Assembly (NCBI GenBank): GCA_029287395.1
Contig: JARFRF010000111.1
Coordinates: 1 to 33,253, forward strand
Reading direction: 5' to 3'
Source of the DNA: Methyloceanibacter sp.
GTDB taxonomy: Bacteria > Pseudomonadota > Alphaproteobacteria > Rhizobiales > Methyloligellaceae
Length of the DNA stretch: 33,253 bases
The translations under genes and the position numbers were made by a program. Within the stretch, counting starts at the first letter, position 1. The number at the start of each line of letters is the position of its first letter. Positions 1,568 through 32,002 of the stretch are shown here, in pieces. The notes beneath the pieces were generated by a model. That model searched no databases. It was not told the origin of the DNA and saw only the letters and a list, made by a program, of their open reading frames with translations.

Positions 1568-1589
<22 letters not shown>

Positions 1590-2674
1590 TCCCGACTGAC
1601 GGCGTCGACTTCTACGCAACGCCAAAAATGGTAGAGCGCCGACGCAAACACCGCGACGGCACCAGCCTGGTGTGCGAGCCCCAGCTCGATCGGTACGAAA
1701 GCGAGCAAGGTCCAGATACCAAGTGCGACCTGCAACAAAGAGAGGATGGCGACTGCCCAGGCACTTGCCCGCAGATAGGCTGCCTCTGGCTTACAAGCTA
1801 GCCACACAGCCTGCACAACAGCGGCAAGAACTACAGCGTAGCCAAGCATGCGGTGGTTGAACTGCACTGTAAGCGGGTTCTCAAAGAGGTTGACGTACCA
1901 CGGTTGCAAGACACCGAGCCCTGTAGGGATGACCGACTCGTTCATCAGCGGCCAAGTATTGAAGCCCATGCCTCCGTCGATCCCGGCGACAAAAGCACCA
2001 GCCATGAGTTGAAGAAATACGAGCAAGAGGACGAGGCCGGCCACAAGCGAGGGTCCCGTAGCCCCAGCGCGAGCTTTCTCAGTCCATCCAAGGCCGAGGA
2101 TTAGCCAAAGCGTGTAACCGAGAATAACAATGGCTAAGCCAAAATGCGCCGCCAACCGGTACTGACTGACGTCGATACGGTCCACCAGACCGCTCTTGAC
2201 CATGTACCACCCCAGCACGCCTTGCAAACCGCCCAACACGAAGAGTCCGATGAGGCGCGGCAGCAAGGCGCGCGGGATATAGCCTGCCAACCAGAAGGCA
2301 ACAAAGGGCACGAAGAACATAAGGCCGATGAAACGACCCAGGAAGCGATGCGCCCACTCCCACCAATAAATCGTCTTGAAGCCCGCCAGGTCCATTCCTC
2401 GGTTAACCTGGGTGTACTCGGGAATCTGCTTGTAGGCGTCAAACGCCGCTTGCCAATCCGCGTTAGACAAAGGCGGAATGATGCCCACGATGGGCTGCCA
2501 TTCCGTAATGGAAAGGCCTGAGTCGGTCAGGCGCGTTGCGCCACCTACGAGGATCATCGCGACGACGAGAAGTGCAATCGCAGAAAGCCAGACGCGCAGG
2601 AGCCGGACATGCCGTGTGTGCGCATTTTCATCCCTCAAAGCGCCTGATAGGGATTGTGTCTCGGAAACACTCAT
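1568..2674 (-). CDS. ctaA: Heme A synthase (CtaA/COX15 family)
   Basis: This inner-membrane protein has about eight hydrophobic helices and converts heme O to heme A for aa3-type cytochrome oxidase. The four histidine-containing helices typical of the family are visible: WEWAHRFLGR, YRLAAHFGLA, VQFNHRMLGY and GLAHQAGAV. The loop GGATRLTDSGLSITEW after the first helix is a COX15 signature. I chose the ATG at 2674 (368 residues, MSVSETQ). A GTG at 2722 in the same frame would add 16 residues that do not look like family sequence. The gene is convergent with metY and overlaps its 3' end by 22 bases. Family assignment is secure. Heme-O specificity is inferred from the family. Confidence 0.95.
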
Positions 2675-2744
2675 GATGCGGTGATACCCGGCTCTTCGTA
2701 AGAACTCAACGGCGAGGCTCACGGCCTAAAAAGGGTCAGACAAC

Positions 2745-2948
2745 ATGAGCGGAAAATCGCGCAAACTCGTTGGCACTATCGTGCTGCTATTCTCTCTGGC
2801 GATTTATATCGTGATTGTTGGAGCAATTGGCGCAGGCCGTATTACCGAAGCGCACTGGTTCTTTCAGTTCATCTACTTTCTCGTTGCGGGGCTTCTTTGG
2901 GTCGCGCCAGCAGCGGTCCTTATTCGATGGATGGCTCGCCCCGACTGA
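2745..2948 (+). CDS. DUF2842 family small membrane protein
   Basis: This 67-residue protein has two predicted transmembrane helices, roughly residues 8-28 and 40-62, and ends in LIRWMARPD. The pattern (basic RKLVGT start, two helices, IRWM-RPD tail) matches the alphaproteobacterial DUF2842 family, whose function is unknown. It starts 70 bases from the divergent ctaA start, so the two may share a control region. An AAGGG ribosome-site-like stretch precedes the ATG. Confidence 0.85.
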   Translation: MSGKSRKLVGTIVLLFSLAIYIVIVGAIGAGRITEAHWFFQFIYFLVAGLLWVAPAAVLIRWMARPD

Positions 2949-3118: not shown

Positions 3119-5962
3119 TTAGCCAGCGCGTCTACTGCCAAAAAGCGAGAAGCGATGCCGCTTTCTCGCAACTGGGTCGCCATGGAGAACGATTGGACAG
3201 CCCAGATGCTGAACAATTGACAGCGCCTCTTCTGCATCTTCCGGCGCCGTATTTGGCGGAAGCACAGCGACAGCGACGGGAAGCTCGAACTTCAACGCGG
3301 GCATAAGATTCTCGATGCTATCCATATCGGCGTGCAAAACGACGCAATCGTATGTCTGCGTGAGCGCCTCGAAGATGCGCATAAACTTGTCCGGTGCGTC
3401 GATGCCAGCATTCAAGTTTGGATCGCCAGCGGGAATGACCTGAAGCGTCGTTCCTTCGTCGAGTTTTATGACGTCGGCAAAATCAACGACGCCGTCCGCA
3501 AGTTCTGAGAATCCGGGCACGCGAGGCATGCTCAACTGCCCCGACACTACGGCACTACCCTTGGCCAGATCGACCAACGCGACCTGCGCATTGCGGCCGG
3601 CAAGGTCGCGCGCAATTCCAATCGCTGTCTGCGCAGACTGAGCCTGTGACGATAAACCCGCAACAAGAGCGGTACGGGGGGCTCCTCCCGTGGAAATTTC
3701 CAGAGTGGTGTCGATCAAATCGTCAAGCGACGTGATTGCGGGACCAAGGTCTTCAACGCTCACGCTTGGTTCGAGGGGCTGCTGAGGGTGGTCGTCCATA
3801 GAAGACCATGGAATTCGCTGGGTGAGATAGTGTCTTAGATCGTTGGGCTGGAGCGGTCTCTCCTCTCGATCGCGCTCTAGTTGGCGTGGACCGCTGGAGC
3901 GTCGCCTAGGCGCATTCGCTACACTCGGCACCTCGCTCTGCCGAATTGCGTCTTGTCGAAAGCGCCTCATCAGATCCCTCGAGAATGCGGATGGCGCGTC
4001 TTCTGTCGTCGCATTGGTCATTGGAACCTCGTAAGAACCATTCTCTGCCTCGCCATTCATGGGCGATCCGCCCCGAGGACTTGGTTTGCCGGCTGCAGCG
4101 GCGGCTTCGGCGTCCGCAGCGGTCCGTGCGACTACGGTGCTTGATGGCGCTGCCAGCGCCGCAAGGACGCCTTTACTCTTTGTCGTAGGCTGCTTCCGCG
4201 ACGCGCCCCTGATTTTCATCGCCGGATTGAACTGCACCCCTGTCTTCGCGGCGGTTCTCTTGTTCGCGGAGGCTTTACGCAAAGGCGGAGCTGTATCTGG
4301 TGAAAGGTGATCCTTGTTCGCACGGGCCTGCCGCAACGATCTCGGGCCATTAGGTGATGCGCTGGGGCGATCCTTGACGGCAAGCCAGGATGGGGGCTTA
4401 GCAGTGTCTGCCGTGCGCCTTGCAGAGTCCTGTGCCTTTTTCGGCCGCGTGCCATCGCGTGCTTTGCCCGCGGCGGATCGCCTCTGATCTCGCATGAGTT
4501 CAACCGCTGGCCTCGATGCGGCTGCGCCACCGGCCGGCACATTCTGCAAGGATTGCTGTCGCCGTTTCCGCCTACCGGCCTCAAGCATCGCTTTTGCAAG
4601 TACGCCGGCGATCATCAAAAGAGCCGTTGCCGCCGCCACCAACAGTGCAACAGGACCACGGCGGGGATAGTTTGGCAGAACCGAAGCATGGGCGCGTGAA
4701 ACGATTGCCGCTTGTGACGACACAGCGCTTACATCGTCACCCGAGGACGCGTCGCGCGCTCGCGCCAAATACGAGTTCAGGAGATCGCGATTGGCTTTCG
4801 CCTCCCGCTCTAGGGCTTGAAGCTTTGCCTGCGCGCTCGACTGCCCCGCCGTGAGGGTCTTCGCGTCATTGAGGCTTGCCCGCAACGATGCTTCTCGCGC
4901 CGCGGCGATCTGCGCCTGGTTCTCTAAGCTCTTGACCACCTTCTGCGCTTCTACTCGGATCTGAGCGCGCATATCGGCCAGCTCGGATTTCAGCTGCTTC
5001 ATGCGCGGGTGAGCTGGCAACAATACCGCGGACTGTTCGGTGAGTTCGCGCTGCACTGACGCGCGCTGTTCAATCGGGTTGATAACGGCCTGCCAGTTCA
5101 GCGCTTCGAGCGTGGCATCGATATCGCCGCCTTGCGCCAGCATTTTTTCGGTGAGTTCCGCGCGCGTCTGCGCCTCGGACTTTTGTGCCTCAGCCAAGAT
5201 AAGTTCGCTGTTGAGCTCTGAGAGCTGCTGTGCATTTAGCGCTGCATTGGTGCTAGGCTCAGAAAGAGCCTTAGAGGCCTTGAACGACTCCAGTGCCGCC
5301 TCGGAGTCGGCGGTCGCTTTGCGAAGTGCGTCAATCTGCGCATCCACCCAAGTCTCCCCCGCCTTTGTCTCCTCGATCTTGGCGTCGCGCTGCCAGGCGA
5401 CGTAGCCGTTTGCCAACTTGTTGGCAATGTCAGCAGCAAGCTGCGGGTCGCCCGATTGATATTCGATCGCAACCACCGAAGTGTTTGACAATTGGCGCAC
5501 ATCAAGATGACGCGCCACCGTGTTTGCGGCCCGTTCCTGCGGTGACCCTTCTCTGGTGTAGCTAAGACCGAGAGCATCAAGTAACTCGTCGATCGGCGTT
5601 GCATCGGCATCGCGCAGAAAGGCTTCGTCCCTGAACAGGCCAAGATCGTTCACGACCCTCAAAATGTGATCGCGGGATTTCAGGAACTGCACTTGGCTGC
5701 GCACCGCCTGTGCATCAAGCTCGGCTTGGTAGCCCGCGCTACCCTGTTCATTGGTTGGACGCGTGAATGCTGTTGCCTCTTTCTGCACACCGATGCGCGC
5801 CTCGGACGTATAAAACGGTCGCATCGTGGACAGCGCAACGAACGTTATCGCTCCAGCAAGGAACGACACCGCTACGACTCGCCACTTGGCCCGCCACAGC
5901 ACGGCGCCAGGACTCCGGCGTTCGATGTCATCTGCCGGTGGGCCGCTTGAGGGCTTCGTCAC
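3119..5962 (-). CDS. Wzc/ExoP-like polysaccharide chain-length protein with degenerate kinase domain
   Basis: This 947-residue inner-membrane protein is of the polysaccharide co-polymerase type. Residues 28-47 form a first helix. Residues 50-430 form a Wzz/GNVR-like periplasmic region with long Ala/Glu/Gln coiled coils, and residues 434-456 form a second helix preceded by a PNYPRRGP motif typical of Wzz proteins. Residues 465-740 are a very basic, low-complexity cytoplasmic linker. Residues 743-947 resemble the P-loop fold of CpsD/ExoP tyrosine kinases, but the Walker A position reads GLSSQAQSAQTAIG with no GKS/T lysine. Walker A' is reduced to VALVDLAKG, and there is no C-terminal tyrosine cluster. 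I infer a chain-length and export scaffold without autokinase activity. The start is a GTG. The gene is divergent from the export lipoprotein. Confidence 0.85.
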   Translation of the reverse strand: MTKPSSGPPADDIERRSPGAVLWRAKWRVVAVSFLAGAITFVALSTMRPFYTSEARIGVQKEATAFTRPTNEQGSAGYQAELDAQAVRSQVQFLKSRDHILRVVNDLGLFRDEAFLRDADATPIDELLDALGLSYTREGSPQERAANTVARHLDVRQLSNTSVVAIEYQSGDPQLAADIANKLANGYVAWQRDAKIEETKAGETWVDAQIDALRKATADSEAALESFKASKALSEPSTNAALNAQQLSELNSELILAEAQKSEAQTRAELTEKMLAQGGDIDATLEALNWQAVINPIEQRASVQRELTEQSAVLLPAHPRMKQLKSELADMRAQIRVEAQKVVKSLENQAQIAAAREASLRASLNDAKTLTAGQSSAQAKLQALEREAKANRDLLNSYLARARDASSGDDVSAVSSQAAIVSRAHASVLPNYPRRGPVALLVAAATALLMIAGVLAKAMLEAGRRKRRQQSLQNVPAGGAAASRPAVELMRDQRRSAAGKARDGTRPKKAQDSARRTADTAKPPSWLAVKDRPSASPNGPRSLRQARANKDHLSPDTAPPLRKASANKRTAAKTGVQFNPAMKIRGASRKQPTTKSKGVLAALAAPSSTVVARTAADAEAAAAAGKPSPRGGSPMNGEAENGSYEVPMTNATTEDAPSAFSRDLMRRFRQDAIRQSEVPSVANAPRRRSSGPRQLERDREERPLQPNDLRHYLTQRIPWSSMDDHPQQPLEPSVSVEDLGPAITSLDDLIDTTLEISTGGAPRTALVAGLSSQAQSAQTAIGIARDLAGRNAQVALVDLAKGSAVVSGQLSMPRVPGFSELADGVVDFADVIKLDEGTTLQVIPAGDPNLNAGIDAPDKFMRIFEALTQTYDCVVLHADMDSIENLMPALKFELPVAVAVLPPNTAPEDAEEALSIVQHLGCPIVLHGDPVARKRHRFSLFGSRRAG

Positions 5963-6120: not shown

Positions 6121-6173
6121 CCGTGAGGTCTAGGATTCGGGCGTACCATGTCCTGGAGCCACTAAATGAGCTG

Positions 6174-6830
6174 GTGCCGTATCACGGTCAGCGCCAAGCC
6201 CTCGCGCTCGTGCTCTCGTTGCGTGTAAGTGGCCTTGCTGGTTGTACGGGTGCCGCTATTCCAAGACTGACGTCCCCGGACCTGGCGCTGTCCACATCCC
6301 TGCTGGGATCCCGCAAGACCTTTCCGGCAGGCGCAGGACACGCATCGCCAGGGTTGCCGGTGGCGCGCACCACCGCCTACACGCTCGACTCAGGAGATCG
6401 CGTCCGCATTCTCGTCTTTGGACAGCAAAACCTTTCGAACGTTTATAACGTCAGCGCCGCTGGAACGGTCGCCGTTCCCCAGATCGGCCAGGTCCGAGCC
6501 CGCGGGCTTACCAGCGCTGAACTCGCGCGCCGGGTCGCCGCCAAACTCGGCAGAGAATTGATAAAAGACCCGCAGGTGACTGTGGAAGTCGTTGCTTACA
6601 GACCGTTTTACATCCTTGGACAGGTTGGGCGTCCAGGACAATATCCTTACGTCCAAGGTCTTACCGTGGAAAATGCCGTGCCAATTGCCGAGGGATATAA
6701 ACCCCTCGCAAAAAAACGCCTTGTACAGCTCTCTCGGAAATTCGACGGCGTCGTATCAACCCTCAAGGTCCCTACGGATTATCCAGTTCAACCCGGCGAC
6801 ACTATTTACGTGCTCCGACGCCTGTTCTAA
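6174..6830 (+). CDS. Polysaccharide export lipoprotein (Wza/OPX family, short form)
   Basis: The protein has a Poly_export domain (TTAYTLDSGDRVRILVFGQ, then VPQIGQVRARGLT) followed by one SLBB-like segment (YILGQVGRPGQYPYVQGLTV), and ends QPGDTIYVLRRLF. At about 218 residues it matches short OPX proteins that lack the large C-terminal region of E. coli Wza. These act in the outer membrane as export partners of Wzc-like proteins. A lipobox, GLAGC, is present. The start is unclear: frame-consistent GTGs lie at 6123 and 6174, neither with a good ribosome site. The best site (GGAG 6155-6158) precedes an ATG at 6166 in another frame, which suggests a one-base deletion in the signal peptide. The mature domain is intact. 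Confidence 0.8.
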   Translation: MPYHGQRQALALVLSLRVSGLAGCTGAAIPRLTSPDLALSTSLLGSRKTFPAGAGHASPGLPVARTTAYTLDSGDRVRILVFGQQNLSNVYNVSAAGTVAVPQIGQVRARGLTSAELARRVAAKLGRELIKDPQVTVEVVAYRPFYILGQVGRPGQYPYVQGLTVENAVPIAEGYKPLAKKRLVQLSRKFDGVVSTLKVPTDYPVQPGDTIYVLRRLF

Positions 6831-6876: not shown

Positions 6877-8031
6877 GTGAGCCTGAACTTCCGAATACTG
6901 CATTGCATGCGCGCGCCTGTGGGCGGTCTCTTTCGCCACGTTCATGACCTTGCGCTCGGTCAAGCGGAGCTTGGTGCCGATGTTGGGATCGTCTGCGACT
7001 CAACTGCCGGTGGGCCCGAGAGCGACGTTGCACTACATAGGCTTCAAGACTGTTGCAAGCTGGGCGTCACACGTATTCCGATGGCGCCCAAGCCTCACGT
7101 CAGTGATTGGTCTGTTTATCGGCGCATTGCGAAACTTGGTCGCAGTATGGAGATCGACGTTCTACATGGCCATGGAACAAAGGGCGGCGCCTATGCACGC
7201 TTGGCCGGAAAGAAACTCCGAAAGAAGAAGACGAAGGTTGTCTATACGCCCCACGGCGGCTTGGTCCATTATTCACCATCATCAGTTTCTGGGAAGCTTC
7301 ACTTTTGGTGGGAGCGCAGACTCGCTCCCCTGACCCACGGACTGATTTTCGAGAGCATGTTCGCCGGCAACCGTTATGCCGAACTCGTTGGCCGTCCAAC
7401 CTGCCCTGCCCGGGTGATCTATAACGGGCTGCAGCGACATGAGTTCTATGAGTCTCTCTTGGCCGACGACGCGGTCGATTTCGTTTACGTGGGGGAGTTG
7501 CGGAAGGCAAAAGGTGTAGATGTGTTCCTGCGAGCGCTCGCGCAGCAGCAATCGGCCTCTCCTGCGCGCGCCATCATCGTGGGTTCCGGCCCAGACGAAA
7601 AACACCTGAAACGGCTCGCCCGGCGGTTGGGATTGGCCGACAAGGTGGCTTTCGCTGGGTCGCAACCCGCTCGCACCGCGTTTGTGCGAGCTCGATGTGT
7701 GGTTATCCCCGCCCGCGAAGAATCTCTGCCCTACATCGTCATAGAGGCGGCGGCGGCTCAGATGCCGATTATTGCCACGAGTGCCGGAGGCATCCCTGAA
7801 ATCACGGGGGATATTTCCATACCGCTTGTGCCGCCGGGGGATGTGGATGCGCTTGCCACTCAGCTGCAAGCTTTTCTTGCAGACTCCGGGCCGTACTTGC
7901 GGCATGCAGTGGAACTTCAGCAGCACGTTGCGGACGTCTTTTCCACAGTCATGATGACCCGGGAAGTCGTTGATTTCTATATAACTGATGTGGGCGCCGG
8001 CGCGCACAGAGCACCCCCTGCAGACGTCTAA
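6877..8031 (+). CDS. Glycosyltransferase family 4 protein
   Basis: This 384-residue GT-B glycosyltransferase carries a Gly-rich N-terminal loop (APVGGLFRHVHDLALGQ), the HGHGTKGG and YTPHGG motifs of the acceptor half, and a GT4 C-terminal half (FVYVGELRKAKGVDVFLRAL; IVGSGPDEKHLK). The E-x7-E nucleotide-sugar motif is present in REESLPYIVIEAAAA, followed by IIATSAGGIPEI. It presumably adds a sugar to a lipid-linked exopolysaccharide precursor at the inner membrane. Donor and acceptor cannot be read from sequence. The start is a GTG, 46 bases after the export lipoprotein gene, so the two are likely co-transcribed. Confidence 0.88.
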   Translation: MSLNFRILHCMRAPVGGLFRHVHDLALGQAELGADVGIVCDSTAGGPESDVALHRLQDCCKLGVTRIPMAPKPHVSDWSVYRRIAKLGRSMEIDVLHGHGTKGGAYARLAGKKLRKKKTKVVYTPHGGLVHYSPSSVSGKLHFWWERRLAPLTHGLIFESMFAGNRYAELVGRPTCPARVIYNGLQRHEFYESLLADDAVDFVYVGELRKAKGVDVFLRALAQQQSASPARAIIVGSGPDEKHLKRLARRLGLADKVAFAGSQPARTAFVRARCVVIPAREESLPYIVIEAAAAQMPIIATSAGGIPEITGDISIPLVPPGDVDALATQLQAFLADSGPYLRHAVELQQHVADVFSTVMMTREVVDFYITDVGAGAHRAPPADV

Positions 8032-8124
8032 ATCCGGTTGCCTTCCGGTCGGCCTCCAGCAACACGCCCCTTCAGCTTACGGCTCGCCCATACCGGCAAC
8101 GGTGGCGATGAACGTTGGGCAAAA

Positions 8125-8157
8125 GAAAGCCCCGGACGGGGGGCTGCCGGGGCTTTC
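8125..8157. terminator. Strong hairpin after the glycosyltransferase gene
   Basis: GAAAGCCCCGG (8125-8135) and CCGGGGCTTTC (8147-8157) form a perfect 11-base inverted repeat with an 11-base loop, 93 bases after the stop codon. On the minus strand it is followed by TTTT, and on the plus strand only CTTTC closes the stem. It could terminate transcription in either direction, or be an RNA element. Confidence 0.55.
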
Positions 8158-8185
8158 AGAATGGTTCCTGTTTGGGGGGAACCTG

Positions 8186-8207
8186 GGCGGAGGAGGGAAA
8201 CTCCGCC
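8186..8207. repeat. Second small inverted repeat in the 8.0-8.7 kb gap
   Basis: GGCGGAG (8186-8192) and CTCCGCC (8201-8207) pair perfectly around an eight-base loop, 28 bases after the stronger hairpin. There is no U-tract on the plus strand. The remaining gap (8208-8696) holds no ORF with recognisable protein sequence and no clear promoter. Confidence 0.4.
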
Positions 8208-8696
8208 TACAATCACTCTAGCACTGTTTGCGACTCGCAGAAAATGACAAAATTGTGTTCCAGGTGAAATTTGATAGGCCCACCTGGGAGTCACTCTCCT
8301 GCAACAGTCGGCGGCCTTTTTGGGCAAACAAGGCTGCTGCCCGATATTCGCCCAGATTGGAGCCGTAAATTGGTGCATTACCTGTTGACGCGGGGGCACG
8401 AGGGAAACGGAGGGAGCCTTGCCACATGGCGGGGCTTCTTCTGGTTTTTGGTCCCTACCCTTCATCTTCACATAAGTCTGTGTCGAGAAATGCCTCACCG
8501 CTGCGGTGGTGGCTGCACGCTTGCACGCGCTGTACAACCGCGGGGTCAGGTTCGCCTCTTGAACAGCCCAAGTCACTATCCCAAGTCCGGAGCGGAACAC
8601 GTCCTTCGAGAAGCGCTGGCTTGCGTCCCCGCTCCCAGGATGGCGCGCATAACAATCACTGCGCGGCCGCACGGCACACAGGAGACTCCTCGTTAA

Positions 8697-10487
8697 ATGA
8701 AGAAAGAGCTCAACCGCCGCGAGGTTTTGGCCGGAACCACCGCGCTGATCGGTTCCGCAAGCGCCGGCGCCACCCATGCACAGACGAACGCCGCCGACCT
8801 TGTGCTGCTCAACGGCAGAATAACCACCATGGACCCGGCACACCCGGAAACGACTGCGCTGGCTGCACGCGACGGCGTGTTTGTGGCCGTAGGTTCGGAC
8901 GACGAGATGCGCGACCTGATCGGCCCGTTCACTCAAGTGATCGATGCCCGTGGACAGCGCGTCATCCCAGGCCTTAACGACAGCCACACTCATGCGATCC
9001 GCGGTGCCGTAAACTATAACCTCGAGGTGCGCTGGTACGGTGTCGACTGCCTTGAGGAGGCGCTTCACCTGCTCCGTGAACAGGCTGAGCGAACGCCGAC
9101 TGGCCAGTTCATTCGCGTCCGCGTCGCCGGGGGATTCTCCGAGTTCCAGTTCAAGGAAAAGCGTCTGCCGACGGTTGCGGAACTGGATGTGGTGTCGCCG
9201 GATCACCCGGTGCTCATCCACCATCTCTACAAACTGACACTGCTGAATACGAAGGCCGTGGAATGGTACGGTTATGACAAGCCCGGCCATCCAGAGTACC
9301 CAGGCGGGATCATCGAGAAGGACGCGGGCGGTAACGCAACCGGGAGGTTGCTCGCTGCACCTTCGGGTCTGCTTATGTACAAGACGTTAGCGGCGGCGCC
9401 GAAGCTTGCGATCCGTGATCAGATCAATTCGTCGCTTCAATATTTCGATGTTCTGAATGAGCTTGGGATTACCTCGGTCTCGGATGCGGGCGGTGGCGGC
9501 ATGGCGTTTCCGGACGCCGACCCCTACAAGGTCATCCGATGGCTACATGAGCACGGCCTTCTGACTACGCGGATCGGCTATCACTCGTTCCCACAACAAA
9601 AGGGCAAGGAGCTATCCGACTACCAGACTTGGACGGCGGAGATTCGCGCTGGCGCCGGGGACGACATGCTCAAGTTCGTTGGCGCGGGTGAAAACCTGTC
9701 ATGGGCTTCCTACGATTTTGAGATCTTTGGCGAAGCGCGCCCAGATATTGACGATGGCGCGGAGGACTACCAGCGCCAGATCATGACAGTGCTCGGCGAA
9801 GCCCGCTGGCCGTTCCGCCAGCACATTACCTACGATGAAACTGGTGACCGTCTGCTCCCGGTATACGAGGACGTTGCCAACGGTGCAGGGCTGACGCCGG
9901 GCTGGTTTGTCGACCATATCGAGACGTTCAGCCAGAAGAACTTGGAACGCATTGCAGCGCTGGGCGGCGGCATTGCATTACAGAATCGCATTCAATTTCA
10001 AGCGGAAGACTTTGTAGTCAACTACGGCACCGAAGCGCTGAAAAAGACTCCAAATTTCCGGGCGATGCTGGACTTAGGCGTTCCCGTTGGCGGTGGCACC
10101 GATGCGACACGAGTGACCTCTTTCAATCCTTGGTACTCAATCCAATGGATGACGACCGGCCTCTCTCGCGGGGGAATGCGGATGTATGACGATGCCAACC
10201 TCTTGACGCGGGAGGAGGCATTGCGTCTCTGGACCATCGGATCGGCCTGGTTTACTGGCGATGCTGGCAAGAAGGGCGCGATTACGCCTGGCCAGTTCGC
10301 CGACTTTGCTGTGCTCGACCGTGACTATTTCTCGGTAACCGATGCTGAGATCGCCAGTCTCAAATCCGAGCTGACTGTCGTTGGCGACCAGGTTGTCTAT
10401 GGCGCAGGAATCTTTGCGCGCGACGATCTCAAGCACATCCCAGAGGTCAGCCCTGATTGGTCTCCCGTGATCCTTCAGCGGGGCTGA
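8697..10487 (+). CDS. Tat-exported amidohydrolase (YtcJ-like, Amidohydro_3)
   Basis: This 596-residue metal-dependent hydrolase has an N-terminal twin-arginine-like signal (NRREVLAGTT, then a hydrophobic stretch and an ATHAQ cleavage region), predicting export to the periplasm. Features of the YtcJ-like amidohydrolase family are visible: ADLVLLNGRITTMDP, the metal-binding NDSHTH (His97, His99), WFVDHIETF, and GGGTDATR near the C-terminus. The substrate is unknown; relatives act on amides or ureas. A GGAG site lies about 12 bases before the ATG. It follows a 665-base non-coding stretch and stands alone, so it probably has its own promoter. It looks complete. Confidence 0.88.
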   Translation: MKKELNRREVLAGTTALIGSASAGATHAQTNAADLVLLNGRITTMDPAHPETTALAARDGVFVAVGSDDEMRDLIGPFTQVIDARGQRVIPGLNDSHTHAIRGAVNYNLEVRWYGVDCLEEALHLLREQAERTPTGQFIRVRVAGGFSEFQFKEKRLPTVAELDVVSPDHPVLIHHLYKLTLLNTKAVEWYGYDKPGHPEYPGGIIEKDAGGNATGRLLAAPSGLLMYKTLAAAPKLAIRDQINSSLQYFDVLNELGITSVSDAGGGGMAFPDADPYKVIRWLHEHGLLTTRIGYHSFPQQKGKELSDYQTWTAEIRAGAGDDMLKFVGAGENLSWASYDFEIFGEARPDIDDGAEDYQRQIMTVLGEARWPFRQHITYDETGDRLLPVYEDVANGAGLTPGWFVDHIETFSQKNLERIAALGGGIALQNRIQFQAEDFVVNYGTEALKKTPNFRAMLDLGVPVGGGTDATRVTSFNPWYSIQWMTTGLSRGGMRMYDDANLLTREEALRLWTIGSAWFTGDAGKKGAITPGQFADFAVLDRDYFSVTDAEIASLKSELTVVGDQVVYGAGIFARDDLKHIPEVSPDWSPVILQRG

Positions 10488-17627: not shown

Positions 17628-19745
17628 CTACTGTTGTGCGAGAACCGCGAGCAGCAGCAATGCCACGATATTCGTGATCTTAATCATCGGGTTCACAGCG
17701 GGACCCGCCGTGTCCTTGTATGGATCACCAACCGTATCGCCGGTAACGGCAGCCTTGTGAGCCTCCGAGCCCTTACCGCCATGATTACCGTCTTCGATGT
17801 ACTTCTTTGCGTTGTCCCAAGCACCGCCGCCCGCTGTCATGGAAATGGCGACGAACAAGCCCGTCACGATTACACCCAGGAGCATGGCGCCCAATGCCGA
17901 GAAAGCAGCACTCTTGCCGGCGATCCAATTGATCAAGAAGAAGAACACTATGGGCGAAAGAACCGGGAGCAGCGAAGGAATGATCATTTCCTTGATAGCT
18001 GCCTTGGTCAGCAGATCAACAGCCCGGCCGTAGTCTGGACGGTCCTCGCCCTTCATGATGCCAGGCTTCTCCTTAAATTGGCGCCGTACTTCCTCCACAA
18101 TGGCGGAGCCGGCGCGGCCAACAGCCGTCATGGCGATGCCGCTAAACAAATAAGGAAGAAGTCCGCCTAGGAAGAGCCCGACAACCACATAGGGGTTGGA
18201 CAACGTAAACTCTGGGTTGACCCCTTCAAAATAGGGATACTGCGCTGCGTTGGCCGCGAAGTACTTGAGGTCTTCCGTATAGGCCGCAAAAAGGACCAAC
18301 GCACCCAGGCCAGCTGATCCAATTGCGTAGCCCTTGGTGACCGCCTTGGTGGTATTGCCGACGGCATCCAAAGCATCCGTTGTTTTGCGCACATTCTCTG
18401 GAAGTCCCGACATTTCGGCGATCCCGCCAGCATTGTCGGTAACAGGGCCAAAGGCATCAAGCGCCACAACCATTCCCGCCAAAGCAAGCATGGTCGTGAC
18501 AGCAATCGCGATGCCGAAGAGCCCCGCAAGATTATACGTTCCGATGATGCCCGCCATGATGACGAGAGCCGGCAGCGCAGTCGATTCAAGAGAAACTGCG
18601 AGGCCCTGAATGACATTGGTTCCGTGCCCAGTGACCGATGCTTTTGCAATCTCGTGAACGGGTCTGAACTTTGTCGATGTGTAGTACTCGGTGATGACCA
18701 CAATCAGCGCAGTCACAATAAGCCCAACGACGCCGCAATAGTATAGAGAGCGACCTGTGAAGCTGACTTCACCGATGCTCATCTTGGTGTCCATACCCAC
18801 CATCAGCTCGGTGACGGGCCAAAGCGCAATAAGCGACAACACGCCCGTAGCGATCACGCCCTTATACAGCGCACCCATGATGGATTGACTGGAACCGAGA
18901 CGAACGAAGTAGGTTCCGATGATCGACGTGACCACACAGGTGGCGCCAATCGCCAGCGGATAAAGCATCATCGGTTCGGTCAGATCACCCGTGAAGTAGA
19001 TCGATGCGAGCACCATGGTCGCGACGACTGTCACGACGTAGGTTTCGAACAAGTCAGCGGCCATACCGGCGCAGTCGCCGACATTATCACCAACATTGTC
19101 TGCAATGGTTGCTGGGTTGCGCGGATCGTCTTCCGGAATTCCAGCTTCCACCTTGCCGACGAGATCGCCACCAACGTCGGCACCCTTTGTGAAAATGCCG
19201 CCACCAAGCCGCGCAAAGATGGAGATTAGTGAAGCGCCAAAACCGAGCGCAACGAGCGCATCGATTACCACTCGCGATGAGGGGTCATGACCGAGGATCG
19301 CCGTCAGCACCCAGTAATAGACTGCAACGCCGAGAAGCGCCAAACCGGCGACCAGAAGTCCTGTGATGGCTCCAGACTTAAAGGCAATGCTCAGTCCATC
19401 GGCGAGACTTTTCGTTGCTGCTTGTGCGGTACGGACATTCGCACGCACTGAGACGTTCATGCCGATATAGCCCGCGACACCTGAGAGAATGGCACCGAGC
19501 GCGAACCCGATCGCTGGCAAGATGCCAAGCAAGAAGATCAAAGCGATAAAGATGACGACCCCAACCAGGCCGATAGCCTGATATTGGCGCGACAGGTAAG
19601 CCTGCGCTCCTTCTTGGATCGCCGCGGCAATTTCCTGCATCTTTGGCGTGCCGGTATCGGCAGCCAGAATGGCATTCCTCGTCAGAACGCCATACGCGAT
19701 CGAGGCCGCGCCGCAGGCAATAATGGTGTAGAGAACCCATGTCAT
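17628..19745 (-). CDS. hppA: Membrane-bound H+-translocating pyrophosphatase, K+-independent
   Basis: This 705-residue protein with about 16 helices couples pyrophosphate hydrolysis to proton export at the inner membrane. The catalytic motifs [23 protein letters not shown] and [19 protein letters not shown] are intact. The residue pair that decides K+ dependence reads [10 protein letters not shown], with Lys467 and Thr470. In the family, Lys plus Thr marks the K+-independent subtype, as in Rhodospirillum rubrum. The C-terminus ([14 protein letters not shown]) is typical. A GGGGA site precedes the ATG. It is convergent with bamE. Confidence 0.96.
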
Positions 19746-19870
19746 CGAAGACTGTCCCCGTTCATTAGATTCGTTGGACTTTGGATGAATCGCGGCTGCT
19801 TAAATGACGTGGCAGGCGTCCGCCGCTTGTTTCCCCCGGTGAGTGGACTTGAGCCGCCGCGGAAAATGCC

Positions 19871-19891
19871 AAAATTGCGTCAGCGACGCAA
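19871..19891 (-). terminator. Rho-independent terminator of the rib-nusB-thiL operon
   Basis: TTGCGTC (19875-19881) and GACGCAA (19885-19891) form a perfect seven-base stem with a three-base loop. On the minus strand it is followed directly by TTTT (19871-19874) and T-rich sequence. It lies 50 bases downstream of the thiL stop. Confidence 0.75.
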
Positions 19892-19941
19892 CAGAAGCCA
19901 GGTCCATTAGTACGAAGGGCGGAGACGACGGCCTCCCGCGC

Positions 19942-20931
19942 CTAGAAGTGGCTAAAGCCTTTAGATTTCAGTTTGATAGCGCGTCCGCCGTCATCCAGCA
20001 CACGAACTTCCTCTGAGCCCGTGATCGTGGCCAGCTGGTAAAAGACCACCGCATGCTCCGCGACTTCCGATTCGAAGAGGTCCGCAGACGTTTCCGATAC
20101 GGCGATCAGCGGCACGTAGTCATCACCGCCGGCCACCAGATATTCCAGTAAACTTGGCGCGGCACTAAGTGCCTTTCGCGCCGCGGAGGAGAAGGGAATG
20201 CTCGCTGTATCAATATCGGCTCCCACGTGCGAAACACTGCAAAGCTTCTCGACGTCTGCGACGAGGCCATCCGAAACATCGATCGAAGCCTTCGCGAAAT
20301 TACGGATGAGCAGCGCCGCGCCCGTCGCTATCGGCGGACGCCGGTAGTAGTCAGTAAGGTAGGCGACGTCTTCCGACGAAAGAGCCCAAGTGTTCGCCAG
20401 TGATGGGTCCTCCAGGAGCTTCAGCCCAAGGTAGGAATCGCCGATCGGCCCTCCAACATAGAGGCGGTCGCCGGGCTTGGCGCCAAGCCGCGTAATAGCC
20501 GCCTCGTGTTGTACAAGTCCAAGTGCGGTAATGGTGATAACGAAAGGCCCGGACGTCGCCGTCGTATCCCCCCCGATTAGAGAGATCCCAGTAAGGTCCT
20601 GAGCCTCCGACAATCCGCCTGCAAAAGCCTCCAGCCAATCCATTTCAGTGTCGGGTGGGAGCGCGAGCGAGAGGGTATAGACATAGCCATGGGCGCCTTT
20701 GGCTGTAAGGTCCGACATGTTGACGGCCAGCGCCTTGTACCCGATCGACGCCGGTGGATCATCTTTGAGGAAGTGGACGCCGCTGACCAACGTATCGCAG
20801 GTCACGACGAGCTGGTGATCGTCTGTGATAGTCAGGACCGCCGCGTCGTCTTTCAAGCCCAGCGCGCCGGAGTCCTTCGCGAGAGGCGCAAAAATGCGGG
20901 CAATTATGTCAAATTCCTCCGCCATTGCCAT
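19942..20931 (-). CDS. thiL: Thiamine-monophosphate kinase
   Basis: The 329-residue protein phosphorylates thiamine phosphate to thiamine diphosphate. It belongs to the PurM/ThiL ATP-binding family: DDAAVL near residue 28, KALAVNMSDLTAKGA, GISLIGGDTTAT and IDVSDGLVADVEKL are the metal/ATP motifs. A GAGGTG site supports the ATG at 20931, and a second ATG lies two codons later. It follows nusB by 30 bases and ends the rib operon, an order common in proteobacteria. Confidence 0.95.
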   Translation of the reverse strand: MAMAEEFDIIARIFAPLAKDSGALGLKDDAAVLTITDDHQLVVTCDTLVSGVHFLKDDPPASIGYKALAVNMSDLTAKGAHGYVYTLSLALPPDTEMDWLEAFAGGLSEAQDLTGISLIGGDTTATSGPFVITITALGLVQHEAAITRLGAKPGDRLYVGGPIGDSYLGLKLLEDPSLANTWALSSEDVAYLTDYYRRPPIATGAALLIRNFAKASIDVSDGLVADVEKLCSVSHVGADIDTASIPFSSAARKALSAAPSLLEYLVAGGDDYVPLIAVSETSADLFESEVAEHAVVFYQLATITGSEEVRVLDDGGRAIKLKSKGFSHF

Positions 20932-20961
20932 TGCGCCACACCTCTCTGATCTGCCTTGAGT

Positions 20962-21459
20962 TTAGTCCTCACCTACCGCGCGGCGTGTCAATTCCTCCGA
21001 CCGAACTTTCCTGGCTAAACGGTCCAACACACCATTGACGACTTTGGGTTCCTCGCCACTGAAGAATGCGTGGGCTATATCAACATACTCGTTGATTACG
21101 ACCCTGGCCGGGACGTCGTCACGCACGCAAAGCTCGAACGCCGCAGACCGCAGAAGCGCCCGCAAGATCGAGTCAACGCGATTCAGGCGCCACCCTTCTG
21201 CCAACTGCTGATCCAGCATCGGGTCGAGGCGGCGCTGTTCCCTGACCACGCCGTCAACAAGATCGTGGAAAAACTCGCCCTCGGCCGCATGATACAGCTG
21301 TCCTTCGATCGCCTGACCGAGCCGATGCATTTGGAACTCTGAGACGACCTCATTCAGGTCGATCCCAGTCATGTCCATTTGGTAGAGAGCCTGAACAGCT
21401 GCAAGACGCGCAGCGCTCCTGGAGCTGGCGCGATCCGTGGTTTTGGTGCCTTGTGCCAT
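20962..21459 (-). CDS. nusB: Transcription antitermination factor NusB
   Basis: The 165-residue all-helical RNA-binding protein carries the N-terminal SAARLAAVQALYQMDMTG and the C-terminal VINEYVDIAHAFFSGEEPKVVNGVLD motif of NusB. NusB works with NusE (S10) in rRNA antitermination. It starts four bases after ribH, so translation is probably coupled. Confidence 0.96.
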   Translation of the reverse strand: MAQGTKTTDRASSRSAARLAAVQALYQMDMTGIDLNEVVSEFQMHRLGQAIEGQLYHAAEGEFFHDLVDGVVREQRRLDPMLDQQLAEGWRLNRVDSILRALLRSAAFELCVRDDVPARVVINEYVDIAHAFFSGEEPKVVNGVLDRLARKVRSEELTRRAVGED

Positions 21460-21463
21460 GCTG

Positions 21464-21934
21464 CTAACGCCGGCTCGCCGATGAGAACTGCTCCTCGAGC
21501 CGCATCAAGGTCAGACACGCACGCGCGGCATCGCCGCCCTTGTTCCGGCCGTCCACGCTCGCCCGTTCCCATGCCTGTTCCATACTCTCACAGGTAATGA
21601 TCCCCGATCCGATGGGAATACCGTGTTGCAACGCGAGTTGGTTCAATCCAGCCGCGGATTCCCGCGCGACGATATCGAAATGACTGGTCTGCCCGCGAAT
21701 AACACAGCCGAGCGCAATGCAGGCGCGGTGCCTACCAGCCCGCCCAACGAAACCGTTCGCGAGTGCGAGGCTTAGCGCCAGGGGGATCTCGAGCGATCCT
21801 GGTACGGAAATTTCCTCATACTCGACATCGTTCCCCCGAAGTTCTTCGGTGGCGCCACGCGCGAGCTCATCTGCGATCTCTTCATAGAACCGCGCGGAGA
21901 TGATCAAAATTGAAGTGGGGCCCTTACGGCTCAT
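21464..21934 (-). CDS. ribH: 6,7-dimethyl-8-ribityllumazine synthase
   Basis: The 156-residue protein condenses 5-amino-6-ribitylaminouracil with dihydroxybutanone phosphate in the penultimate riboflavin step. The lumazine-synthase segments are visible: ISARFYEEIADEL, SVPGSLEIPLAL, GCVIRGQTSHFDIVARES with the catalytic His, and IPIGSGIITCESMEQAWERA. It starts five bases after the ribBA stop. Confidence 0.96.
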   Translation of the reverse strand: MSRKGPTSILIISARFYEEIADELARGATEELRGNDVEYEEISVPGSLEIPLALSLALANGFVGRAGRHRACIALGCVIRGQTSHFDIVARESAAGLNQLALQHGIPIGSGIITCESMEQAWERASVDGRNKGGDAARACLTLMRLEEQFSSASRR

Positions 21935-21939
21935 GATGA

Positions 21940-23061
21940 CTACTCCAGGCCGCGATGACCAACGACCGTCAATCCGTACCCCTCAAGGCCAACGATCTTG
22001 CGCGCCGGCGAATTCGATAGCAGAACCATCTCGCGAACGCCAAGGTCCAAAAGGATCTGTGCGCCAATTCCGTAGTCCATCAAACGAGCCTGAGCACCTC
22101 CCGCAGCGCTCTTATTTAGTCTAGCCGAGATGGCGTCTGGGCGAGATTCACGGATCAAGACGACCACGCCCCGGCCTTCTCGCTCAATAATGTTCAGCGC
22201 CTTGCGGATGCAGTTTTCGCAGCCGGGCGCGAGCATGTCTTGAATCGTATTGACGGCGTGCACACGAACAAGAACGGCCCCGCCCGAAGCGATATCGCCT
22301 TTAACCAGGGCCACATGTTCAATCGGATCGACTGTCGTGGCATAGACCTTTGCCTGGAAAGGCTCGCCATGTGCACCCTCTATGGTGGTGTCAGCGACCG
22401 CCTTTACGAGATGATCGTAGCGAAGACGATAAGCAATAAGGTCCGCAATCGTTGCGATCTTTAGGTCGTGCCGCTCGGCGAAAGTCACAAGGTCTGGCAG
22501 GCGCGCCATCGTGCCATCGTCGTTCATGATCTCGCAAATCACACCAGCAGGGTTCAAGCCTGCAAGCCGCGAAATATCAACTGCTGCTTCAGTATGCCCG
22601 GCTCGCACAAGCACACCGCCCTCCTTGGCCAAAAGCGGGAAAACGTGGCCGGGCGTCACGATATCTCGATGATCCTTAGTCGGATCAATTGCAACCGAAA
22701 TCGTGTGGGCACGATCATGGGCAGAAATACCCGTCGTAACGCCTTCGCGGGCCTCGATGGACACCGTGAAGGCCGTCGAATGCCTAGAGCGATTGGACTG
22801 CGACATCAGCTCAAGTCGTAATTGCTTTGCCCGCTCGGCTGTGATGGACAGACAAATGAGACCGCGGCCATGCTTAGCCATGAAGTTGATCGCGTCCGGC
22901 GTGCCCATTTGCGCCGGAATGACGAGATCGCCCTCGTTCTCTCGATCCTCGGCATCAACAAGAATGAACATCTTGCCGTTGCGCGCGTCCTCGATCACTT
23001 CTTCAATGGGCGACAGAAGACGCTTGAGCTCCGTGATTTCTGCCGCAGTCAAAGCCGTCAC
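21940..23061 (-). CDS. ribBA: 3,4-dihydroxy-2-butanone-4-phosphate synthase with degenerate GTP cyclohydrolase II domain
   Basis: The first ~205 residues are a DHBP synthase with EDRENEGDLVIPAQ and the ISAHDRAHTI/HVFPLLAKEGGVLVRAGHTEA core, intact for making the four-carbon unit from ribulose 5-phosphate. The C-terminal ~165 residues follow the GTP cyclohydrolase II fold, but the zinc triad C-x10-C-x-C is reduced to GCENC and the catalytic R-x-EGRG motif reads IRESRPDAIS. I infer this half does not hydrolyse GTP; related alphaproteobacterial RibBA proteins share this state. The start is a GTG that overlaps the ribE stop (GTGA). Confidence 0.93.
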   Translation of the reverse strand: MTALTAAEITELKRLLSPIEEVIEDARNGKMFILVDAEDRENEGDLVIPAQMGTPDAINFMAKHGRGLICLSITAERAKQLRLELMSQSNRSRHSTAFTVSIEAREGVTTGISAHDRAHTISVAIDPTKDHRDIVTPGHVFPLLAKEGGVLVRAGHTEAAVDISRLAGLNPAGVICEIMNDDGTMARLPDLVTFAERHDLKIATIADLIAYRLRYDHLVKAVADTTIEGAHGEPFQAKVYATTVDPIEHVALVKGDIASGGAVLVRVHAVNTIQDMLAPGCENCIRKALNIIEREGRGVVVLIRESRPDAISARLNKSAAGGAQARLMDYGIGAQILLDLGVREMVLLSNSPARKIVGLEGYGLTVVGHRGLE

Positions 23062-23663
23062 GAATGCACTCCTTCCACTTCCGACAATCTGGCCGCATAT
23101 CGCGCGAGTAAATCGACTTCAAGGTTTACCAAATCACCTGGCTGCCGTTGGCCCCAACTTGTATGGCTCAGAGTGTAAGGGATGATGTTCACGTCGAAGC
23201 GTGGCCCTTCCACTTCGTTGACCGTCAACGAAACCCCATTGAGGGCAATCGACCCTTTCGAAGCGATGAACTTGGCGAATTCTACGGGGACTTCCAGAAG
23301 GAACCGCACACTTTCGCCGTCCGGGAACCGTGAAACGACCTTGGCAACGCCATCGACATGTCCCGTGACGATATGGCCGCCAAGCTCTTCCCCTAGAGCC
23401 AGCGCGCGCTCAACGTTGATCCCACGGCCCGGCTCCCACGATCCCATTGTCGTGTGGCTTAACGTCTCGTTCGACGCGTCTATCTTGACGACGGATCCAC
23501 CACTTTTCGCCTTTTTGATCTCCGTGAGCGTCAGGCAGCAACCATCAAAAGCAATTGAACTCCCGAGGTCGAGGGTCTTTCGCTTGTAGGGAACATGGAT
23601 ACTGAATTTACCGCCTTCGCGCGCAACAAGCGTGCCTAGGCCGCTGACAATGCCGGTGAACAT
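23058..23663 (-). CDS. ribE: Riboflavin synthase alpha subunit
   Basis: The 201-residue protein dismutates two lumazines to riboflavin. It has the two expected lumazine-binding repeats: MFTGIVSGLGTL with DGCCLTL and NVERAL in the first, and GHIVTGHVDG with LNGVSLTVNEVEGPRF in the second. I chose the ATG at 23663, because the family starts MFTGIV. It overlaps ribD by 28 bases and ribBA by four, indicating tight co-translation. Confidence 0.95.
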   Translation of the reverse strand: MFTGIVSGLGTLVAREGGKFSIHVPYKRKTLDLGSSIAFDGCCLTLTEIKKAKSGGSVVKIDASNETLSHTTMGSWEPGRGINVERALALGEELGGHIVTGHVDGVAKVVSRFPDGESVRFLLEVPVEFAKFIASKGSIALNGVSLTVNEVEGPRFDVNIIPYTLSHTSWGQRQPGDLVNLEVDLLARYAARLSEVEGVHS

Positions 23664-24769
23664 GCTTTGATCCTGCGCCAACGCATCATTCGGTCCGGAC
23701 CGAAGTTGCGTGTGGCAGTAAGTGTGAATTGGCCACTGTCGGCAAATCGATCAAGCCCTCTGCCTCCAAAAGGCGTCAAGCCATCCTCTCCAGCAAGAGC
23801 GGCACCCTGATATACAATCGCCTCATCGACAAGATCGGCATCAACAAACGCTTCGGCAATCGACGGCCCGCCTTCGATCAACACCCGCGTGATGCCGCGA
23901 CTAGCCAGAGTCTCCAAAGCACCTTCAGGACTGATCATACCCTGGTCGTTGAGCGGAACCGAGAGGATCTCCGCCGCTTTCGAGCGCAGTAACTCCGCAT
24001 TTGCTTGGGGCCGTTCTGCCGCGCAGAGCAACCAAACTGGGGCCTCCCCAGACTCGAACAAGGACGCGCTAGACGGCGTGCTCAAATGTCGGTCCATCAC
24101 TACACGGACGGGGGATCGCGATAACAGGCCAGGCAGCCGACATGTCAAAGAGGGGTTGTCTGCCGTCACTGTCCCGCGCCCGACCAATATTGCATCGTTC
24201 GTTGCACGAAGCAGATGACCATGCGCGCGAGCTTCTAGGCCGGTGACCCAAACTGGCTTGCCGTTACCTCGCGGAACGCGTCCATCGGAGCCGAGCGCCA
24301 ACTTGAGCGTCACGGCAGGGCGGCCTTCCGTAACTCGCAGAATGTGCCCCAGCGTCAGGCTCGTCATCTCATTGGTCCCAACACCCTCCAGGACTTCGAT
24401 TCCCGCATTCCTGAGCTGCTTGATGCCATTCCCGGCTGTTCGGGGATCCGGGTCGCGGATACCAACAACAACCCTCTGAACCTGTGCAGCGATGATCGCA
24501 CCAGAACAGGGCGCGCCCCTCCCACTTTCGTGAGCACATGGCTCTAATGTCACGTAGAGCGTGCTACCTGCCGCGCGGTCCCCTGCCCGCTCCAGCGCGA
24601 TCGCTTCGGCATGCGGCCGTCCGCCAGGCGCTGTCCAGCCACGTCCGACGATTTCGCCAGACGGCGCCACGACCACGGCGCCGACAGCAGGGTTTGGCCA
24701 AGCTAGGCCAAGGCCGCGTCTGGCGATCCGGGCGGCATGAGACATGAAATTTGCATCGCGCGTGTCCAT
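23636..24769 (-). CDS. ribD: Bifunctional riboflavin deaminase/reductase
   Basis: The 377-residue protein has an N-terminal cytidine-deaminase-like domain with the zinc motifs PHAEAIAL and PCAHESGRGAPC. A C-terminal reductase domain follows (LKLALGSDGRVPRGNG, LVGRGTVTADNPSLTCR, ITRVLIEGGPSIAEAF). It performs two successive steps on the pyrimidine intermediate. It follows nrdR by 15 bases. Confidence 0.95.
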   Translation of the reverse strand: MDTRDANFMSHAARIARRGLGLAWPNPAVGAVVVAPSGEIVGRGWTAPGGRPHAEAIALERAGDRAAGSTLYVTLEPCAHESGRGAPCSGAIIAAQVQRVVVGIRDPDPRTAGNGIKQLRNAGIEVLEGVGTNEMTSLTLGHILRVTEGRPAVTLKLALGSDGRVPRGNGKPVWVTGLEARAHGHLLRATNDAILVGRGTVTADNPSLTCRLPGLLSRSPVRVVMDRHLSTPSSASLFESGEAPVWLLCAAERPQANAELLRSKAAEILSVPLNDQGMISPEGALETLASRGITRVLIEGGPSIAEAFVDADLVDEAIVYQGAALAGEDGLTPFGGRGLDRFADSGQFTLTATRNFGPDRMMRWRRIKACSPALSAA

Positions 24770-24784
24770 AGAGGCGCGCCTTAC

Positions 24785-25288
24785 TCAGTCGTCGAGCGCA
24801 TTCGAGTCGCGCTTATCCAACTTACCGTCTTCGTCGTCGGCTCCGGCAAGTTCTCCAAGAAGGGCCTCAAAATCTTTCGCCTCGCGGAAGTTCTTATAAA
24901 CCGAAGCGAAACGAACGTAGGCGACGTCGTCTAGTCCTTTAAGGGCTTCCATAACCAGGTGACCGATGGTTTCAGAATTGATGTCGCTTTCACCCATGTT
25001 CTCGAGCCGGCGGACAATGCCACTAACCATGCGTTCGGTTCGCTCTGGGTCGACAGGCCGCTTGCGCAATGCAATCTGGACCGAGCGCATTAGCTTGTCC
25101 CGGTCGAATGGAATTCTGCGCCCGCTCCGCTTAATCACGGTCAATTCGCGAAGCTGGACGCGCTCGAATGTTGTAAAGCGGCCGCCGCAGTCTGAGCAGA
25201 CGCGGCGGCGCCGAATTGTCGTGTGGTCCTCGCTAGGACGCGAGTCCTTCACTTGCGTATTGGTGCTGCCGCAATAAGGGCACCGCAT
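24785..25288 (-). CDS. nrdR: Transcriptional repressor NrdR
   Basis: The 167-residue protein has an N-terminal zinc ribbon (Cys3-x2-Cys6 and Cys31-x2-Cys34) followed by an ATP-cone domain (residues ~49-139, [16 protein letters not shown] to [13 protein letters not shown]). It senses ATP/dATP and represses ribonucleotide reductase genes; none is in the window. The acidic C-terminal tail makes it slightly longer than the usual ~150-160. It lies 43 bases after glyA. Confidence 0.97.
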
Positions 25289-25331
25289 GGGCGACCGCCC
25301 TCCTGTTCGTCAACACCAAGCCGTCTGGCGC

Positions 25332-26621: not shown

Positions 26622-26630
26622 CTCCAACTG

Positions 26631-26636
26631 CTCCTT
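26631..26636 (-). promoter_or_regulatory. Ribosome binding site fixing the glyA start
   Basis: AAGGAG on the minus strand lies nine bases before the ATG at 26621 and only three before the in-frame TTG at 26627, favouring the ATG. Confidence 0.6.
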
Positions 26637-26897
26637 GAGCTTAAACTTGTTTTGGGCCCGAAAGCTCCCACCGCTGAGCGGGGTCTCAGATCCGCGGGAT
26701 CAGGCTGATTTCGCTCGCTCTACCACATGTCGCGCGGTGACGCTAGCAACGCCCCAAGAGTAGAGATATTTCACTCAGCCTAATCTACGAACAACTGCAA
26801 ACTATCTTATTCGAGCTCGTTGACGAGTGAAACACAGCGCCCATGCCGCCCCGCTCTTAAGTTGGAACAGCGGCTCTGGTGCCGATGCATATTCGCT

Positions 26898-29125: not shown

Positions 29126-29182
29126 TTAGTTGTTGTTTTAGCCAACTTGGCGATGACTATAAGACCGCCCCGACTAAGAGGC

Positions 29183-31992: not shown

Positions 31993-32002
31993 TCCGTATC
32001 GC

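Follow-up and report, generated by a model that had tools for sequence, protein, structure and literature searches.

A gene for a polysaccharide co-polymerase (PCP) with a dead bacterial tyrosine kinase (BY-kinase) domain was found at 3119–5962 of contig JARFRF010000111.1 (assembly GCA_029287395.1) of Methyloceanibacter sp. The whole stretch analysed, called the window here, is 33,253 nucleotides long. The best explanation, with a probability of about 0.7, is that the protein is a PCP-2 type Wzx/Wzy co-polymerase, and that the BY-kinase-like domain fused to it is a pseudokinase, inactive since long ago and retained as a scaffold for the sake of its surface, not of phosphotransfer. The observations behind it are the domain order, the predicted fold, the motif loss across the order, purifying selection and the gene neighbourhood. 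The polymer may belong to the same type as that of the syntenic rhizobial locus. This family offers natural experiments on how a dead BY-kinase aids a co-polymerase. The dead domain is conserved, its leash varies from 94 to 502 residues among the eleven rows measured, and the domain is freed in two sister genomes.

Domain Structure and Predicted Fold

The gene starts with GTG, and its frame of 947 codons is intact. In the Pfam scan, Wzz is the sole domain of the protein (residues 21–107, 34.3 bits; cut-off 25.5). The NCBIfam profile TIGR01005 matches residues 20–471 with 200.4 bits, below its cut-off of 411.7, and TIGR01007 (polysaccharide tyrosine autokinase) gives a weak match to residues 752–877 (E 0.0011, 18.5 bits; cut-off 108). 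Two predicted AlphaFold2 (AF2) helices, residues 18–45 and 437–471, flank the Wzz domain, as in PCP-2a tyrosine autokinases. The pseudokinase belongs to a co-polymerase, as is characteristic of phosphorylation-independent PCP-2 proteins with a BY pseudokinase; here the two are parts of one polypeptide. The mean predicted local distance difference test score (pLDDT) of the full-length AF2 model is only 52.8.

Relatives of the C-terminal domain were collected across the genus, the family and the order by taking the best match of each genome. The alignment contains 46 rows: 45 (window included) come from 56 genomes with a match, and L038 is the 46th. Eleven genomes have no row. They are G013 (frame change), G045 (a contig end cuts the open reading frame, ORF), and nine whose loci were left out (G029, G036, G037, G040, G046, G055, G056, G059, and G060). 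Since there is one best match per genome, the counts given here describe this lineage, not all co-polymerases of those genomes. Many order-level rows are merely 12–25% identical within the domain, and some may not be strict orthologues.

A profile made from the 46 rows matches BceF, VpsO, CapAB, Etk, and Wzc best, with E values from 3.4e-22 to about 2.5e-11, and ParA/MinD proteins rank below these BY-kinases. The AF2 model of residues 701–947, built from a three-sequence alignment, has a mean pLDDT of 66.8, with 62–86 in the ten-residue blocks of the core. When this model was compared with the PDB by Foldseek, BY-kinases occupied 50 of the 50 rows among the matches listed (CapA2B2, 1.2e-8). 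By VIA-align they occupied the first 19 rows, with Z scores of 15.8–18.2 and root-mean-square deviations of 2.8–3.7 across 178–201 residues. The first row of the next family, ParA/MinD, has a Z score of 13.8. An earlier reading made from the letters alone (the sequence-only reading) had proposed a co-polymerase whose C-terminal domain keeps the CpsD/ExoP-type fold as a dead tyrosine kinase. The Wzz match, the BY-kinase fold of the profile and of the predicted model, and the loss of the catalytic motifs agree with it.

Loss of the Catalytic Motifs

The positions of the motifs were determined by adding to the 46 rows seven paralogues, found in that set of genomes, whose GK[ST] is intact. All seven retain the Walker A lysine and the Walker B aspartate. 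At the P-loop, the window protein has serine for the Walker A lysine, glutamine for both glycines and alanine for the Walker A serine/threonine. Its Walker A' motif has aspartate at the first acidic position and alanine at the second, and the Walker B aspartate is replaced by histidine. The first Walker A' aspartate is thus the sole survivor of the Walker A, A', and B residues that characterise PCP-2a autokinases. The tyrosine cluster of these autokinases is also missing, as no tyrosine is present in the last 30 residues of the window protein. A BY-kinase fold, here predicted, without catalytic motifs or a tyrosine tail is what defines the phosphorylation-independent PCP-2 proteins.

The relatives show the same pattern. 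A lysine in the Walker A column is seen in one of the 46 rows (window counted), L063, where it stands in DKS without the P-loop glycines. The Walker B aspartate is seen in five rows and the first Walker A' aspartate in 43. The last 30 residues contain no tyrosine in 26 rows, one in 19 and two in one. Misalignment of a true Walker A lysine was considered and rejected: GK[ST] occurs in four of the 46 rows, never in the P-loop column. The absence of the lysine and of the tyrosine cluster, stated in the sequence-only reading, is thus seen across the relatives too. Judged from the alignment, the motif loss is old and common to the lineage across genus, family and order, because only one row of these has the lysine, and that without glycines.

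Selection on the Domain

The pseudokinase is under purifying selection. For the three closest pairs, the ratios of nonsynonymous to synonymous substitution rates (dN/dS) are 0.112, 0.068, and 0.139 for the pseudokinase and 0.056, 0.053, and 0.093 for the co-polymerase half. The linker, with 0.272, 0.289, and 0.417 in the same pairs, evolves faster than both domains. In wider pairs the pseudokinase shows 0.074–0.157 where dN/dS could be estimated; the pair of the window and G009 is saturated, and the pair of G001 and G016 is an exception, described below.

Linker

The sequence-only reading had described a basic linker of about 275 residues. Its length is supported by the full-length model, in which pLDDT is below 50 across residues 460–741. 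Its basic character is true of the window but not of the family. In the window, the 242 residues counted have a net charge of +26 (10.7 per 100 residues). The net charge of the ten other rows lies between −16 and +24 (between −11.9 and +4.8 per 100 residues), so the basic character is not conserved. The measurement began with 14 names, and G020, G021, and G017 were dropped as the end motif was not found.

Short conserved islands are present in the linker (Table 1). The pattern behind the island RFRQDAI is R-[FMIL]-R-x-D-x-[IN], and NDLR[HRD]Y[LM] is seen in all 14 genus rows that hold the domain, window included. A frameshift as the origin of the basic linker was rejected for the window, where the islands common to relatives sit in the ORF's own frame. 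A frame change breaks the linker ORF in G013 and G007, and both were treated as possible draft errors. Their C-terminal rows were kept in the counts of linker islands, NDLR motifs and start sites, although G013 is absent from the 46-row alignment.

A methionine is present at one shared spot before NDLRHY in seven of 12 fused rows (L039, L040, L041, L043, L044, L048, and L049) and in both freed ones described below. The methionine of G001 is one codon nearer. In G012 and G007, the internal methionine is preceded by a moderate, 4-base ribosome-binding match. Some fused genes may also yield a free pseudokinase from such an internal start. The window has no ATG, GTG or TTG at this place.

Freed Pseudokinase in Two Genomes

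In G002 and G006, the place of the locus and its neighbours are kept, and the co-polymerase half and the linker are gone. The domain is left as an ORF of 246 or 250 residues, starting a few residues before the NDLR motif. The two loci are 72% identical across 617 bases, a span that takes in the region ahead of the start, and form one group in the domain tree (97/97). On these grounds the deletion is probably common to both. When 30 genomes of the family were searched with the freed domain, 21 gave a match. The shortest open frames, 261 and 283, are those of G002 and G006, and the others are fused (538 amino acids or more), except that of G007 (315), which has a frame change upstream.

Between the two freed ORFs, dN/dS is 0.161 (bootstrap 0.102–0.23), compared with 0.088 for the GT4 glycosyltransferase gene and 0.113 for CtaA. 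In a neutral simulation with substitutions only, 4000 runs were made at each divergence; both frames stayed open in 43 of them at 0.3 changes per site, in one at 0.59 and in none at 1.0. Ahead of the freed starts lie ribosome-binding matches of 6 and 5 bases; among 152 other in-frame ATGs of these genes, two have a match of at least 5 bases. No Wzz domain, priming transferase or polymerase was found in G002 or G006, draft genomes that are 82% and 84% complete. An in-frame stop and a frame change disrupt Wza in G002, where GT4 is open.

These facts are in favour of a job of the pseudokinase apart from the co-polymerase; it might, for instance, hold or regulate the GT4 next to it. Such a job is possible, with well under even odds, and is compatible with the scaffold explanation. 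With slightly greater reserve, it can be speculated that the pseudokinase functions as a unit in itself: in one clade of the genus a deletion would have freed it, and selection would have maintained it next to the glycosyltransferase after the loss of the co-polymerase and, as far as the drafts show, of the polymerase and the priming enzyme. On the other side, a co-polymerase could be hidden in the missing parts of the drafts, the Wza of G006 is also open (225 amino acids), and the two genomes probably represent one event.

Locus and Genome Context

Table 1. Features of the co-polymerase gene and its locus in the window.
Feature	Position	Strand	Evidence
Polysaccharide co-polymerase with C-terminal BY-pseudokinase domain, 947 amino acids	3119..5962	-	ORF, Pfam, NCBIfam
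First membrane helix, residues 18–45	5828..5911	-	AF2 helix and hydrophobic stretch; membrane insertion presumed
Periplasmic Wzz/PCP module, residues 46–436	4655..5827	-	Pfam Wzz 21–107; long AF2 helices
Second membrane helix region, residues 437–471	4550..4654	-	AF2 helix; hydrophobic stretch
Disordered linker, residues 472–740	3743..4549	-	pLDDT <50 over 460–741; relatives variable in length and charge
Linker island PSWLAV, residues 524–529	4376..4393	-	Also in G014, G004, G005, G009, G003; variant in G001
Linker island GVLAALAAP, residues 598–606	4145..4171	-	Also in G014, G004, G005, G009; variant in G003
Linker island RFRQDAI, residues 667–673	3944..3964	-	Pattern also in G014, G004, G005, G009, G003
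NDLRHYLTQR motif, residues 707–716	3815..3844	-	Conserved island nearest to the domain
BY-pseudokinase domain, residues 741–927	3182..3742	-	Profile and predicted fold
Degenerate P-loop (Walker A position), residues 769–777	3632..3658	-	Motif alignment
Wza/OPX outer-membrane polysaccharide export protein, divergent	6123..6830	+	Poly_export 4.9e-22; 47.5% to S. meliloti neighbour
GT4 glycosyltransferase	6877..8031	+	Pfam; 41.8% to S. meliloti neighbour
CtaA/COX15, syntenic flank	1568..2722	-	Pfam; S. meliloti comparison
DUF2842-type small gene, syntenic flank	2745..2942	+	tblastn with S. meliloti gene, 33%, E 1.7e-10

In gene order, the locus resembles a stretch of Sinorhizobium meliloti (L078) that contains CtaA, DUF2842, GNAT, a co-polymerase, divergent Wza, GT4, a priming transferase and an O-antigen-ligase-type protein. 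The co-polymerase of this stretch has 712 residues and no P-loop lysine. By the numbering of S. meliloti genes, it is presumably SMc01795; the record does not carry that tag. Of the eight L078-type genes, the window has five, arranged in that order: CtaA, DUF2842, the co-polymerase, Wza, and GT4. All eight are present in the congeners G014, G005, and G016. The priming transferase is seen in 10 of 17 genomes of the genus and the polymerase in five of 12 searched. In G008, G010, and G015, no co-polymerase, Wzz domain or priming transferase was found. By gene content, the pathway has been lost repeatedly in the genus.

Just past GT4, at the place where congeners hold the priming transferase and the polymerase, the window contains an Amidohydro_3 gene (8697–10487, + strand). 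At that place beyond GT4, no ORF of G002 or G006 matched it. A 420-amino-acid ORF without a Pfam match (8028–9290, − strand) overlaps the amidohydrolase gene and is probably not a gene. Elsewhere in the window's genome, L002 (G000:C205:1826-2095) matches residues 7–96 of the co-polymerase weakly (28%, E 9e-4) and has two internal stops; perhaps it represents the remains of a second co-polymerase. In another Methyloceanibacter stretch (L037, 5869–6078), the GT4 beside Wza matches over just 28 residues of a 69-residue ORF, and the priming transferase of G009 begins at the edge of another contig. Both are probably due to rearrangement or an assembly break. The ten genes scanned at 17628–33082 include ordinary housekeeping genes: H+-pyrophosphatase, AIR-synthase-related protein, riboflavin genes, SHMT, L,D-transpeptidase, enoyl-CoA hydratase, extensin-like protein, and ALAD.

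Role of the Pseudokinase

In the scaffold explanation, the usual co-polymerase cage would be built from the Wzz-type periplasmic module and the two membrane helices and would meet Wza, which is encoded divergently. On its long disordered leash, the pseudokinase would be a cytoplasmic scaffold independent of phosphorylation. It could dock on the base of the co-polymerase, on the cytoplasmic glycosyltransferases that build the repeat unit, or on both.

Several facts weigh against this explanation. In the pair of G001 and G016, the dN/dS of the pseudokinase is 0.369, higher than that of the co-polymerase half (0.149) and of CtaA (0.228). EX2RX2R is an oligomerisation motif of Wzc, Etk, and CapB. 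Among 54 rows scanned, it is seen only in the window (in the linker), G054, G041, and the paralogue p_G018. As it is not conserved, a Wzc-like octamer cannot be assumed. GNAT, the priming transferase and the polymerase have no match anywhere in the window, and the latter two were not found in the window's genome, which is 81% complete. In this species, the pathway may therefore depart from the standard one. Moreover, the unique changes of the window lineage and of G014 in the co-polymerase half are 78:11, 72:9, and 99:13 with three outgroups.

The lineage of the window is fast in general, with corresponding counts of 24:10 and 20:11 for CtaA and 30:11 and 30:9 for GT4. Even within this fast lineage the co-polymerase half is fast (p = 0.033 and 0.005 against CtaA; 0.048 and 0.10 against GT4). 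The counts for the pseudokinase are 15:2, 9:8, and 28:12, and the contrast between the two halves gives Fisher p values of 1.0, 0.0016, and 0.012 by outgroup. The contrast was dropped as a proof that the halves are decoupled, as the outcome varies with the outgroup. In the domain tree, the terminal branch of the window pseudokinase is long, 0.36, against 0.01–0.05 in its nearest relatives.

The window copy may thus be decaying, because the draft shows neither the priming transferase nor the polymerase and the co-polymerase half is fast. The gene could be considered a relict in this species, left after the loss of the priming and polymerising enzymes; one chance in several is as much as this merits, a little below that of a separate job for the domain. 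The seven to eight times more unique changes than in G014, the long terminal branch and the three congeners without a gene of this type or a Wzz domain are consistent with it. The intact frame and the open Wza and GT4 beside it speak against it, as do the dN/dS values between the window and G014, 0.137 for the co-polymerase half and 0.157 for the pseudokinase, which are rough estimates with dS above 1. The confidences given to these explanations overlap, since a scaffold role, a separate job for the domain and decay in this one species are mutually compatible.

It is improbable that an active BY-kinase or a paralogue with GK[ST] controls the domain in trans. TIGR01007 was searched in 19 genomes, 17 of which, the window's own included, belong to the genus. 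None of the 17 contains a gene above the cut-off; the single one overall is in G018, of another genus. Regulation by another BY-kinase, suggested in the sequence-only reading, therefore finds no candidate kinase at that cut-off in the genus. A second co-polymerase with intact GK[ST] is present in at least four congeners (G003, G005, G012, and G013), and second co-polymerases were also found in G004, G014, and G016. An interaction of PssP2 with the Walker-bearing PssP is reported as well (PMC4182512). However, the window gene is the single Wzz match in its genome, apart from the weak match with two stops, and the window protein has no tyrosine tail to be phosphorylated. A phosphatase partner was considered and dropped: low-molecular-weight phosphatase genes (PF01451) are seen in all nine genomes searched, so their presence is uninformative either way.

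Cryptic nucleotide binding or catalysis through an unusual P-loop is very improbable: the first Walker A' aspartate is widely kept, but the window lacks the lysine, the P-loop glycines and the Walker B aspartate, positions that vary freely in relatives.

Comparison with Known Systems

Fused co-polymerases with a dead BY-kinase are already in print, and motif loss alone is not new. PssP2 of Rhizobium leguminosarum bv. trifolii is described as lacking Walker A, A', and B and the tyrosine cluster (PMC4182512). Like the window protein, it combines a Wzz module with a C-terminus of BY-kinase fold without the motifs, and belongs to a Wzx/Wzy-type locus. Unlike the window protein, it has 586 residues and a shortened periplasmic part (PMC4182512). 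About 75 residues separate its second membrane segment, which ends near residue 334, from its AAA-domain match, which begins at 409. Removal of the last 153 residues of PssP2 is reported to change the amount and chain length of the exopolysaccharide (PMC4182512). The descriptions of the change differ within that paper: the abstract describes reduced high-molecular-weight polymer of greater length, and the discussion describes more polymer with high-molecular-weight fractions dominant. The partners it gives for PssP2 are the transferase PssC, the Walker-bearing PssP, and PssT (PMC4182512).

The putative SMc01795 of the syntenic S. meliloti stretch is like the window protein in its neighbours and in the absence of the P-loop lysine. 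It differs in having no long linker and in its complete locus, with GNAT, the priming transferase and the O-antigen-ligase-type protein. PMC12004946, citing Cuthbertson et al., names SMc01795 among the fused variants of such pseudokinases. The literature searches gave no title on the co-polymerase or the freed pseudokinase of this genus among the matches listed.

The Wzc/ExoP-type BY-kinases of the PCP-2a group share domain order and fold with the window protein, which differs from them in having neither the catalytic motifs nor the tyrosine cluster. EcpK/EpsV of Myxococcus xanthus and HfsB/HfsA of Caulobacter crescentus have the BY-kinase fold without catalytic motifs or a tyrosine tail, like the window protein, and EcpK and HfsB are proposed to be co-polymerase scaffolds (PMC12004946). 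The scaffold role suggested in the sequence-only reading fits this proposal, as the fold is kept and the motifs are lost. Unlike these systems, where the pseudokinase and the co-polymerase are separate proteins (PMC12004946), the two are fused in the window and the pseudokinase is freed by deletion in G002 and G006. To the known cases, this family adds a leash that varies greatly in length and contains conserved islands, evidence that the pseudokinase is under purifying selection, and two draft genomes in which that domain is found without the co-polymerase.

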